The notes below the pieces were generated by a model. It did not search any database. It saw only the letters and a program-made list of their open reading frames with translations, and had not been told where the DNA came from. This document shows, in pieces, positions 31,300 to 35,403 of a DNA stretch of 57,008 bases; position 1 is the first letter of the stretch; each line of letters opens with the position of its first letter. Source of the stretch: Thermococcus sp. (GTDB lineage: Archaea > Methanobacteriota_B > Thermococci > Thermococcales > Thermococcaceae); assembly GCF_015521605.1 (NCBI RefSeq), contig NZ_WANV01000024.1, forward strand, positions 1 through 57,008. The letters are read 5' to 3'. The position numbers and the translations under genes were made by a program.

Positions 31300-31998
31300 T
31301 CAAGTTCCACCACATGGGAGGGTAACGTTGAGGGTTCTGACTTCGACCCATCCCCCGCTGTGCTCAATATACCGCGAAAAGTTGAACTCAAAGAGAACCT
31401 CGAGCTCTCCGCTTCCAAATACCGGATAGTTGGGTCCCAGGTACAACTTTGGCCTCAGCTCAACATACCCCGGGACAACCTCCCCACCCCCGTTGTCGTG
31501 AAAGTACGCAAAGATCACGGGTATGGTCGAGCATTCCGAAATGTTGGAGGGGGATATGGGTATCTCCACCTTGCCCCTATCGACGTTTCTGGGCACGAAA
31601 TAGACCAGTTTGGCCATCATAACCCTCGGCGTGTTGAACCCGGGGGTAGGGTAATACCACACATTGTAACCGAAATCATACGTCCGCTTCCACCCACCGT
31701 CATCAATTGCTACCGCCGGTCGGAAAAGGTCACTGATGATGGGCCACGACTCATCCAGAAGTCTGATCTTGACGGGGTAGAAGACAAAAACCGCGTCGTT
31801 TCCGGCCAGTAGCCTTTCGATGGGCTTCCTCTCAATGTCCCACTCAATGAGAAAGTTCGACGTCCCGTTCACTGCGATGATGGAAGCGTTGACCCCAAGA
31901 TCCCCGGGCGTGGCCATAAAGCGTCCCAGGAACCCTGATCTGATCGAGATGTGAAGGAGCAGGAGAACGAGAATAACAAAAGCCACAATCCTTTTCAT
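31300..31998 (-). CDS. Membrane-anchored exported protein in the mevalonate cluster
   Basis: 232 residues from ATG 31998 (GGTG four bases upstream). An N-terminal helix MKRIVAFVILVLLLLHISIR acts as signal or anchor; the rest is a beta-rich extracytoplasmic domain (VEIPISPSNISECSTIPVIF and so on) with two or three cysteines and sequons. It sits with 51-base gaps between ipk and fni. I recognise no family. Whether it has anything to do with isoprenoids is unknown. Confidence 0.7.
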   Translation of the reverse strand: MKRIVAFVILVLLLLHISIRSGFLGRFMATPGDLGVNASIIAVNGTSNFLIEWDIERKPIERLLAGNDAVFVFYPVKIRLLDESWPIISDLFRPAVAIDDGGWKRTYDFGYNVWYYPTPGFNTPRVMMAKLVYFVPRNVDRGKVEIPISPSNISECSTIPVIFAYFHDNGGGEVVPGYVELRPKLYLGPNYPVFGSGELEVLFEFNFSRYIEHSGGWVEVRTLNVTLPCGGT

Positions 31999-32049
31999 CA
32001 CGCACCGCCTAGGGGAATATAACGTTGAGAAATAAAAAATTTACGCTGA

Positions 32050-32841
32050 TTAAATGTTGATCCTCGTTCCAAAGCCGTCACCCCGTATCGCCCCGCTCAG
32101 CCTCCCAGGAACTTTGCCGTTCACGAACCAGACCTCGGAGTGGTCGGCTATCTTCTTTGCCTCCTTCAGCTTGTTGCAGATTCCGCCGGTGACGTCGGTT
32201 CCGGCGGCGGTGCAGTGGAGCCTTTCGAGGAGGGAGTCTATCTCCTCCCTGCTGAGGTTCTGAATCAGCCCCCCCTCACCGGGCTTGCCGTCGTAGATTC
32301 CGTCAACGTCCATGAGGAAGATGACCTTCTCAGGCTCAAGCATCTTGGCGAGGTAGGTTATGATCTGGTCGCCGGAGAGTATGTCGATGCCCTTCGCGAG
32401 GTCTATCGAGACGTCTCCAAAGAGAACGGGAATGAATCTGAGTTCCAGCAGTCTTTCCACGACCTCAAGGTCACCGTAGGCGACCTCACCGTTTTCGGTT
32501 ATGAAGACGGAGGATGTCGAGACGGAGAAGGCCGGCAGACCCTCACGGACGAAGGCTTTGATGAACTTCGCGTTTGCCCGGAGCATGGCCTGATGGGTCT
32601 CGGTGAAGCCTATCCTCCGGAAGTTGGCGGTCTCCCAGTCTTCGGGGAGGCCCTCCCTTATACCGTACTTTTTCGCCTCGGGATGGCCGAAGCTCCCCCC
32701 GCCATGAACGATGATGAAGTTCTCACGGGGATAAAACTTGGCTATCTCCTTTGCTATGTTCCCCACGGTCTCACGGTCAAAGTTCTCGGGCTCACCTTTC
32801 TTATCGCTGAAGACACTGCCGCCGACCTTGACGATTATCAT
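32050..32841 (-). CDS. ipk: Isopentenyl phosphate kinase
   Basis: Phosphorylates isopentenyl phosphate to IPP with ATP, the last step of the archaeal mevalonate route. 263 residues, amino-acid kinase fold. N-terminal [14 protein letters not shown], glycine loop VHGGGSFGH with the catalytic histidine His53, and [13 protein letters not shown] and [14 protein letters not shown] motifs. Its start overlaps the mvk stop by four bases (ATGA), so the two are translationally coupled. Confidence 0.95.
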
Positions 32842-33842
32842 GGCAGAACCTCCTCTATCCTGAGTCCCTCACGGCTTATCCTCGTTATCATCGGCGTTCC
32901 ACCGGCTATCGTTATAGCTGTGGCAACTTCGCTCTGGTTCTTCGGCGCTAAAGCGTACATACAGCCGCCCCCGCCGGCGCCGGTTATCTTCGCCCCTATC
33001 GCCCCAGCAACCCTCGCGGCGTAGACCAGTTCGCTGAGCTTCTTTGTTGAGACGCCCAGGGCATCCAGGAGGCCGTGGTTGATGTTCATGAGCCGTCCGA
33101 GCTTTTCAAAGCGAACCTCCTCGTCGAGGTCTGAGACTATTACCTCCCGGGCCTTCTCAACTATCTTGCCCATCGCAACGAGCACCGGTTCTATGACCCC
33201 GGGCATCTCCTCGTAGGTTCTCCTCACCATGGCCACCAGTTCCTTCGTCGACCCGCTTGAACCCGTGTAGCCGACTACTATGGGCAGCTCCATGAAGGGG
33301 AGGTGCTCGAAGCTCCCCTTCTCGTAGTGGATGAAGCCGCCTATGGCCGAGACTGTTGGGTCAATTCCGCTCGATGCCCCCTGAACGAGGAGTTCGACCT
33401 TATGGCCGAGCTTTCCTATCTCCTCGTTGGTCAGCTCAAGGCCGAGCAGTTTTGAGACCGCACCGATGGTCGCAACGGCAACCGCAGCGGATGAGCCGAG
33501 GCCAGCCCCGACGGGTATCTGAGAGGTTATCGAGACAGTTATTCCTTTGTCGTTTGCGTCCGCCTCGTCCCGAACGAGCTCAATGGCCTGCCTGACGTAG
33601 CTAAGCACTTCAGCCGCCTTTCCGTAGTCGCTCTCGAAGTATATCTCGTCCTCGGAGAAGGATACAGTAAGACCCGGGACGCGTATGTCCTTGGCCTCGA
33701 TTTTAATAGCCCCACTATCGTTGAACTCGGCCCGGACGTAGGTTCTGAGGTCTATGGCAGCTGCTATCGCCGGCTTTCCGTAGACGACGCTGTGCTCGCC
33801 GAAGAGGATAATTTTAGCGGGTGCTGACGCTAAAACCCTCAT
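32838..33842 (-). CDS. mvk: Mevalonate kinase
   Basis: GHMP kinase making 5-phosphomevalonate. 334 residues. N-terminal [20 protein letters not shown], the GHMP ATP loop [15 protein letters not shown] (110-124), a catalytic Asp in SSGIDPTVS and the C-terminal [14 protein letters not shown]. The start overlaps the stop of hepT and its stop overlaps the start of ipk, both by four bases. Confidence 0.97.
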
Positions 33843-34177
33843 TTTTGGCCCTCCATGATACTTTTTAAGCGAAATTCAATCTCATCGAGGTCGTTCTTGA
33901 TTGTGTACCAGACGATTGAAAGGTCAACTCCAAAGTAAGCATGAAACAGTCTGTCCCTCATTCCAGCGATTTCTCTCCAAGGCAAATCCGGGTGCATTGC
34001 TTTAAACTCTTCCGGGAGATTCTTAACTGTCTCTCCAATGATTTCGAGGTTGCGTATAACAGCATCTACCGTCTTTTCATCCACTACAAAATCCTCAAAA
34101 TCCATGCCCTCAGTGTATCGCTTTATTTTTTCAATGGCTTCCAGGATGTCTTCCACGTACAAAAGAGTATCCCTCAT
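33839..34177 (-). CDS. hepT: HepT-like HEPN toxin
   Basis: 112 residues, four-helix HEPN fold. The catalytic RX4HXY motif is intact as RDRLFHAY (74-81), which includes the tyrosine that MntA-type antitoxins AMPylate. HepT proteins cleave RNA, tRNA or mRNA depending on the system. Coupled by ATGA to both its antitoxin upstream and mevalonate kinase downstream, an unusual setting (see findings). Confidence 0.9.
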
Positions 34178-34482
34178 ACGTACTTCACCTCTTGAAGAAT
34201 ACGTTCTTTAATCCTCTTTTTGAGCGCTCCTTTGGTCACAAGGTCAACTTTAACCCCGAGGAGGCTCTCGAGGTATTCCTGAAGTCGAATGAAGTCTATG
34301 AGTCCTATTGGCTTTTCAAACTCGACGAGAATGTCAACGTCGCTGTCTTCCTTCTGCTCTCCGCGCGAGTAAGAGCCAAACACCCCAATTCTCTTGACAC
34401 CGTATCTCTCCCTAAGCTCCTCCTTATGTACGCGGAGTACCCTTTGGACGTCCCTGAGGGTTCTGACTCGGGAAACCTGCAT
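34174..34482 (-). CDS. mntA: MntA-like nucleotidyltransferase antitoxin
   Basis: 102 residues. Minimal nucleotidyltransferase with GS-X10-DXD (Ser37, Asp48, Asp50) in GVFGSYSRGEQKEDSDVDIL and a third acidic residue in VKVDLV (Asp80). In characterised HepT-MntA pairs this enzyme inactivates the toxin by AMPylating its tyrosine. All catalytic residues are present. It follows the MEMO-family gene by 39 bases on the same strand. Confidence 0.9.
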   Translation of the reverse strand: MQVSRVRTLRDVQRVLRVHKEELRERYGVKRIGVFGSYSRGEQKEDSDVDILVEFEKPIGLIDFIRLQEYLESLLGVKVDLVTKGALKKRIKERILQEVKYV

Positions 34483-34521
34483 GGTTTAGAGTAATGAAGT
34501 GGAACCTTATCACCCTTTCGC

Positions 34522-35403
34522 TCACTTCCGCATCACAATGCTGGCGTAGCCCACTACGGCATCGGTCGAACGGCTCACCTCGAAGCTCGTGGTGTAGTGC
34601 AGGAGCTCGGCCTCAACCGCTCCAGCGAGGCGGGAATAGACTATCGCGGTTCCAACTCCTCCAGGCCCGCACATGGTGTGGTTCATCTCCTTCAGCTCGC
34701 GGAACATCCCCCTAACATCGAAGTCGAGGATGCGCCTTATTACCCTGAAGTCCCACTCCTTTATCCTGTGGGGGAGCTCATCGGCCCTTGCCCTGAAGGG
34801 TATGTAGCCGTACATGGGGCCGTAGTGCATGAAGTCAGTGCTCGCGATGACCACGACGTCCCTGCCGAGCTCTCCACCGGCTTCAAAGATGGCCTTTCCG
34901 AGGTCTTCGGCAACCTCCTCGTCCTGAATGCCGAGGGTTATCGGGACTATTTTAACGTCCTTTCCCGCCTTCTTGGCCAGGTACTGGATGAAGGGAAGCT
35001 GAACCTCTATCGAGTGCTCATAGGTGTGGGCGGTCTCGTCGAGGTCCGCTATCCCCGAGAGCCTTGATATGGCTCTGGCCATCTCGGAATCAACATCGAC
35101 GTCACCGAGGGGCGTGCGCCATTTTCCCGAGGGATAGACCGCTATCGGAGAACCCATTCCGGTGTGGTTCGGCCCGAGGATCACAAAGGTCTCCGGCAGA
35201 CCGTCTTCAAAGATGGCCTTGTAGATTCTGCTCGCGGTGTAGCCCGAGAAGACGTAGCCGGCATGGGGAGCAACGCCGGCGGTTATTCTCCTCTCACTCC
35301 CCTCCTCCCCGAGGTCGCCCAGGAACTCCTCCAGCATCCCGATGAGCGCTTGGCCGGACGGGTAGAAGCTGCCGGCAACGGCAGGATACCTTACCTTCGC
35401 CAT
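34522..35403 (-). CDS. MEMO-family protein (AmmeMemoRadiSam system protein B)
   Basis: 293 residues, [20 protein letters not shown]. Contains the dioxygenase-like metal-site histidines and acidic residues in [31 protein letters not shown] and STDFMHYG. Reported relatives bind copper or iron, but archaeal function is not settled. Archaeal MEMO genes are commonly found beside mevalonate kinase, as here. The GGTGAGAG site lies just before the ATG. Confidence 0.93.

Follow-up and report, generated by a model that had tools for sequence, protein, structure and literature searches.

MNT-HEPN toxin-antitoxin pairs occupy an exchange slot ahead of the mevalonate kinase gene in Thermococcales, with probable polar coupling to it

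Class I HepT/MntA systems were defined by Yao et al. (2020), who proved that the pair of Thermococcus cleftensis CL1 (CL1_0071/CL1_0070) is a toxin-antitoxin (TA) system neutralised by AMPylation, with Y82 of the toxin as the AMPylated residue (PMC7641770). The type VII MntA-HepT of Shewanella oneidensis (SO_3165/SO_3166) is built in the same way, as a two-gene MNT/HEPN module with RX4HXY and GSX10DXD motifs. The presence of MNT-HEPN genes within biosynthetic operons is also already known, since such a pair lies in the lysine operon of T. thermophilus HB8 and is absent from HB27 (PMC2701414). Furthermore, overlapping gene pairs of the ATGA type, with a Shine-Dalgarno sequence (SD) in the upstream cistron, showed strict translational coupling in 9/9 tested Haloferax pairs, and coupling was demonstrated in E. 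coli as well (PMC6728339).

Here, we describe a locus that combines these features in a stretch of 57,008 nucleotides from Thermococcus sp. (contig NZ_WANV01000024.1, referred to as the window), in which an MNT-HEPN pair with the motifs of the Shewanella module precedes the genes for mevalonate kinase (mvk) and isopentenyl phosphate kinase (ipk). The features are:

34522-35403, minus strand: MEMO-like gene (Pfam PF01875, E=1.2e-75), which bounds the slot upstream here and in relatives
34506-34520, minus strand: BRE/TATA-like box CGAAAGGGTGATAAG, whose ATAA begins 28 nt before the mntA ATG, with no SD; putative leaderless promoter
34174-34482, minus strand: mntA, minimal nucleotidyltransferase antitoxin, 102 aa (Pfam PF01909, E=2.2e-21)
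34333-34377, minus strand: GSX10DXD catalytic motif of MntA, G36-D50 (motif check; in 19/19 type-1 MntA at mvk)
33839-34177, minus strand: hepT, HEPN RNase toxin by family, 112 aa (Pfam PF01934, E=2.6e-32)
33935-33958, minus strand: RX4HXY motif of HepT, RDRLFHAY (R74, H79, Y81; motif check)
33849-33854, minus strand: mvk SD, GGAGGG, within the hepT coding sequence
33839-33842: ATGA overlap of hepT stop and mvk start, its frame kept in intact and toxin-deleted loci
32838-33842, minus strand: mvk, mevalonate kinase (GHMP kinase in Pfam; NCBIfam PRK03926, 8.5e-148, above cut-off)
32050-32841, minus strand: ipk, isopentenyl phosphate kinase (AA_kinase in Pfam; NCBIfam NF040647, 2e-68, above cut-off)

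As the original prediction had it, mntA, hepT, mvk and ipk form a chain in which each gene shares a four-base ATGA with the next (34174-34177, 33839-33842 and 32838-32841), and the catalytic motifs of both toxin and antitoxin are intact, MntA having a third D at position 80 besides G36-S-X10-D-V-D. The mvk/ipk overlap is present too in most loci that lack a pair. The gap between the MEMO-like gene and mntA measures 39 nt and holds the promoter-like box, which the prediction had not mentioned. MntA matches the PADLOC candidate defence models PDC-S09, and a search of PDB sequences returned 1wot alone for MntA and no match for HepT. On the far side of ipk, a 233-aa ORF without a Pfam match (31300-32001) separates it from fni, and many relatives encode a homologue (26-53% identity) in the corresponding position.

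With a PF01934 toxin carrying RX4HXY, a PF01909 antitoxin carrying GSX10DXD, and the MNT gene directly upstream of the HEPN gene, the window pair fits the definition of a Class I (type VII-like) MNT-HEPN pair; HepT is predicted to be toxic and to be AMPylated by MntA. Against the NCBIfam type VII equivalog models, whose cut-offs are 60 bits each, the window pair reaches 43.7 and 49.3 bits and so stays below them. The experimentally proven pair of T. cleftensis CL1, which we take from the match at Y82 to be our locus L109 (genome G017), also stays under the cut-offs (35.6 and 49.7 bits), so that a score below them need not place a pair outside the class. The L109 HepT is 54% identical to that of the window, and the Tyr of its motif is residue 82 precisely, corresponding to Y81 in the window; the L109 MntA is 61% identical by local alignment, and its motif is shifted by two residues, probably through a difference in start codon. 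CL1 thus resembles the window pair in families, gene order, motifs and sizes, at 54-61% identity as judged through L109. Unlike the window pair, L109 does not appear within an essential operon, and its hepT gene has no overlapping downstream gene. A different pair found at the mvk locus of relatives (type 2, below) exceeds the type VII cut-offs (101.8 and 63.3 bits) and is nearer to the Shewanella system than the window pair, which scores below the equivalog models.

To place the locus in its family, we compared 94 Thermococcales genomes, one per species and including some fragmented MAGs; mvk was present in 86, and 84 loci were classified at the mvk start. The interval between the MEMO-like gene and mvk contains an intact pair in 22 of these loci, an antitoxin alone in 13 and a decayed pair in 5, while 26 are empty and the rest hold other inserts or unresolved gaps. 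Empty loci have about 50 nt between the two genes, some gaps being longer or shorter. Occupied loci draw on two pairs, type 1 being that of the window and type 2 an MNT-HEPN pair of 124 + 140 aa with the motif RNILVHRYG, and the 22 intact loci carry type 1, type 2, tandem pairs, or a type-2 MNT plus type 1; this count takes in one locus with a HEPN gene interrupted by Ns (L073) and one with Lys for the catalytic Arg (L052). By sequence comparison, two different MNT-HEPN pairs thus use the MEMO-mvk interval as an exchange slot. The L052 toxin (type 1, genome G030) reads KDRLIHAY in place of RX4HXY and is possibly an inactive toxin kept beside its antitoxin.

Four genus-level groups have the arrangement at this very site, and dN/dS is about 0.07-0.08 for mntA and hepT across species (0.06-0.10 in intact pairs) vs 0.066 for mvk; purifying selection near that on mvk, together with this recurrence, indicates that the arrangement is more than chance. 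The losses have the pattern expected of a TA system, with 13 loci in which the antitoxin stands without a toxin and none of 84 with an intact toxin that lacks an adjacent antitoxin. Close orthologues of the pairs never lie away from mvk, and the pair sitting elsewhere in nearly all relatives, which would have refuted the original prediction, is not what the survey shows: all 19 type-1 MntA of at least 71% identity, all 12 type-1 HepT of at least 62% and all 14 type-2 HEPN of at least 70% are at mvk. We also considered type 1 as a stray copy of other HepT loci and rejected this, given that the mvk-linked MntA cluster as a single clade (SH-aLRT 98) in a tree with 23 paralogue sequences and that the HepT tree (2 changes) does not contradict a single origin. 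In the open-licence literature we found no report of an mvk slot of MNT-HEPN pairs. For T. thermophilus HB8 a single insertion was reported (PMC2701414), whereas here a slot between promoter and SD was re-used repeatedly, by two pair types and with in-frame toxin deletions; it is this repeated use by two families, together with the deletions, that sets the mvk slot apart.

Several related loci were seen alongside the survey. At L120, L127 and L128, type-1-like MntA-HepT genes form a second operon-embedded pair, with an apparent transporter gene upstream and hepT overlapping an alpha/beta-hydrolase-like gene by ATGA. Loci L129-L139 (e.g., L132:1145-1574) carry a HEPN gene that stands alone, with no adjoining MNT in the genomes looked at, and has the degenerate motif LREVLIYNYD (His to Tyr); it mostly shares an ATGA or GTGA overlap with an archaemetzincin-like gene (named by eye) and looks domesticated. 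Finally, there are mini-mvk pseudo-cassettes, in which part of HepT comes before a shortened mvk whose codons 1-67 run directly into 259-333; two lie in one genome (G080:C1:779464-780054 and 841130-841723, the second copy being L088) and one in another (G077:C1:89835-90428).

The states of the slot are scattered over the mvk tree, sister species differ, and the cassettes have histories of their own. The window cassette shares 87.8% identity with its counterpart in genome G020 vs 70.8-72.7% with others, whereas the window mvk is 86.7-87.8% identical to those of G043 and G061 vs 78.6% to that of G020. Similarly, the type-1 cassettes of G023 and G070 are 98.9% identical, against 85% for the MEMO-like gene and 90% for mvk. 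Because cassette and neighbour identities disagree, cassettes must pass from one species to another, entering the slot at mvk each time, and do so faster than their neighbours. Tandem loci contain an apparent copy of the MEMO end before the second pair, as expected from recombination between alleles, and L024 (-298..-22 relative to mvk) encodes a chimeric antitoxin with a type-2 N-terminus and a type-1 C-terminus, joined in the shared nucleotidyltransferase motif region. Other genes fill the interval as well: in five loci (L019, L039, L048, L056, L064) about 2.7 kb separates the MEMO-like gene from mvk, with a reverse-strand ORF of 822 aa in L019 that is P-type ATPase-like (named by eye), and in five loci of other genera (L072, L074, L082, L083, L085) the interval encodes a membrane protein some 145 aa long, alone or ahead of MNT-HEPN genes.

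These observations bear on the proposal of a domesticated regulator, in which the pair would adjust isoprenoid synthesis or couple growth arrest to that pathway. It would account for two different MNT-HEPN families having settled at the same site beside mvk, and for the purifying selection on antitoxins left without a toxin (median dN/dS 0.12). However, we judge it very improbable and see nothing that positively supports the tuning of isoprenoid synthesis, as a stable lineage-wide association with mvk is not what the survey found: 26 of 84 loci are empty, unrelated genes (an unrelated pair, a P-type ATPase or a membrane-protein gene) take the place of the pair, cassettes are exchanged between species faster than the genes around them, and no link to the metabolites of the pathway is visible.

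Where the pairs inserted is informative about the expression of mvk. A BRE/TATA-like box (CCAAA...ATAA) stands upstream of mvk in 18/26 empty loci, at 37-41 nt in the genus of the window and 62-63 nt in another genus, followed by the SD; in occupied loci it is the ATG of the first antitoxin that has such a box, 26-28 nt upstream (29/36) and with no convincing SD, and a strict pattern finds none within 80 nt of mvk (0/35), counts that are descriptive because the box pattern was picked after the sequences had been inspected. In other genera, occupied loci and their empty relatives share one box, CCAAAAGGAAAATAAA, which in the latter lies ahead of mvk, and the mvk leader GGAGGGTCAAARATGAGG is common to most empty and occupied loci of the window's genus. 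As read from these alignments, the cassette sits between the BRE/TATA-like box and the mvk SD. Published Thermococcus maps of transcription start sites place the TATA box about 23-27 nt upstream of the start and count 12-14% of mRNAs as leaderless, so the geometry at occupied loci is that of a leaderless mRNA and the box is a putative leaderless promoter. The comparison of mvk upstream regions that the original prediction called for thus finds, by sequence, no separate mvk promoter in occupied loci.

The 3′ ends of the toxin genes lie in the mvk leader. Read in frame, this leader GGAGGGTCAAARATGA supplies the LEGQ(K/R), or close variant of it, with which toxins of both types terminate, and in the window the mvk SD makes up the last hepT codons (EGQK). 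We therefore rejected this tail as a sign of homology between the toxin types: type-1 paralogues away from mvk have other ends, without EGQ(K/R). The four-nt overlap with an SD before the downstream start is conserved, with the exception of L027, L062 and L065, in which the toxin ends about 8-10 nt before mvk, so that the overlap is not universal.

Toxin loss has respected this frame. In all 13 antitoxin-only loci, the frame that opens at the toxin's own ATG stays open to the TGA of the mvk ATGA, with 9, 14, 18, 22, 28, 33, 36 or 40 codons of the toxin frame remaining. These represent about 8 independent deletion junctions, for which the chance without frame constraint is (1/3)^8 = 1.5e-4 by hand arithmetic, independence being judged by the junctions, so that shared ones may be one event spread by exchange. 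Out-of-frame disruptions occur at L077 and L078 (other genera) and at L055 (which has no antitoxin), and with these three added 8/11 are in frame (p about 0.009, also by hand). The in-frame deletions suggest that mvk became dependent on read-through of the pair.

A simpler account is that a mobile TA pair landed in a compact operon and that mvk is translated from its own SD, the overlap being without consequence. The mvk SD is indeed intact in nearly all loci, the lysine operon of T. thermophilus HB8 provides a precedent (PMC2701414), and other Thermococcales pairs overlap downstream genes too (L120, L127, L128). Nevertheless, this account appears rather unlikely, since neither the in-frame bias of the toxin deletions nor the absence of a box before mvk in occupied loci would be expected if mvk were independent.

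We consider it the best explanation, with a probability of roughly 0.6, that the window carries an ordinary selfish or defensive TA of the standard MNT-HEPN kind whose transcription-translation unit has come to take in mvk, which would make any frame-breaking mutation in the pair polar on that gene. In this scheme, HepT would act as a HEPN RNase silenced by MntA through AMPylation of Tyr81, as extrapolated from the proven Thermococcus paralogue. The BRE/TATA-like box would give a probably leaderless mRNA beginning at the mntA start codon, and mvk, having lost a promoter of its own, would be expressed only as a distal part of mntA-hepT-mvk-ipk. Coupling may be achieved by ATGA termination-reinitiation, by transcriptional polarity or by both; the Haloferax and E. 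coli pairs for which coupling was demonstrated share the ATGA overlap with an SD in the upstream cistron (PMC6728339). A nonsense mutation or frameshift in either TA gene would then also cut the expression of mvk, and the pair would be hard to inactivate by point mutation. Its exit would mostly take one of two routes, deletion of the toxin in frame or exchange of the whole allele for one that is empty or different. We take mvk to be an essential gene in these archaea, in keeping with its place in archaeal lipid synthesis.

Several observations count against this polar coupling, among them the out-of-frame disruptions at L055, L077 and L078 and the early toxin stops at L027, L062 and L065. A strong GGAGGG SD is kept, so mvk may initiate by itself at growth temperature (sequestration of this SD by mRNA structure is doubtful at about 85 °C), and the pair is not tightly fixed, given the many empty loci and the differences between sister species. 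The expectation that the pair was captured into the operon and is not easily lost therefore stands in its first part: comparative data indicate that mvk is read through the pair (a box before mvk in 0/35 occupied vs 18/26 empty loci, frames kept in 13/13 toxin deletions). Its second part does not hold, with 26/84 loci empty, 13 without the toxin and sister species in different states.

The antitoxins left behind open a further reading, in which the slot keeps MNT antitoxins, with or without a toxin, to neutralise HEPN toxins that arrive from outside or to serve in abortive infection, with constant expression from the mvk promoter. The 13 antitoxin-only loci retain intact GSX10DXD motifs and appear to be under purifying selection (dN/dS range about 0.05-0.19), part of the measured divergence possibly predating toxin loss. 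MntA matches the PADLOC candidate defence models named above, and genomes hold several related pairs elsewhere. Polarity on mvk alone could hold the frames open, yet it would not explain amino-acid conservation. We regard this anti-addiction or defence role as rather unlikely; it is in part compatible with polar coupling. A more inclusive proposal, which we put forward tentatively and with somewhat greater confidence, is that the 5′ leader of an essential gene serves as a TA slot, in which two exchanging MNT-HEPN families took over its expression, leaving the gene hostage to read-through while toxin-less antitoxins keep a function of their own.

Why chromosomal TA pairs persist is a long-standing question, for which these related species constitute a natural experiment: one slot displays pairs that are intact or in tandem, antitoxins left without a toxin, chimeras and empty alleles. 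The genome that we take to be T. kodakarensis (G024) appears to have a type-2 pair at its mvk slot, and if so genetics would be feasible; the slot of T. onnurineus is taken to be empty. A TA pair coupled in this polar way to an essential gene could be shielded from point-mutational decay, which would offer a concrete and testable route to its persistence.
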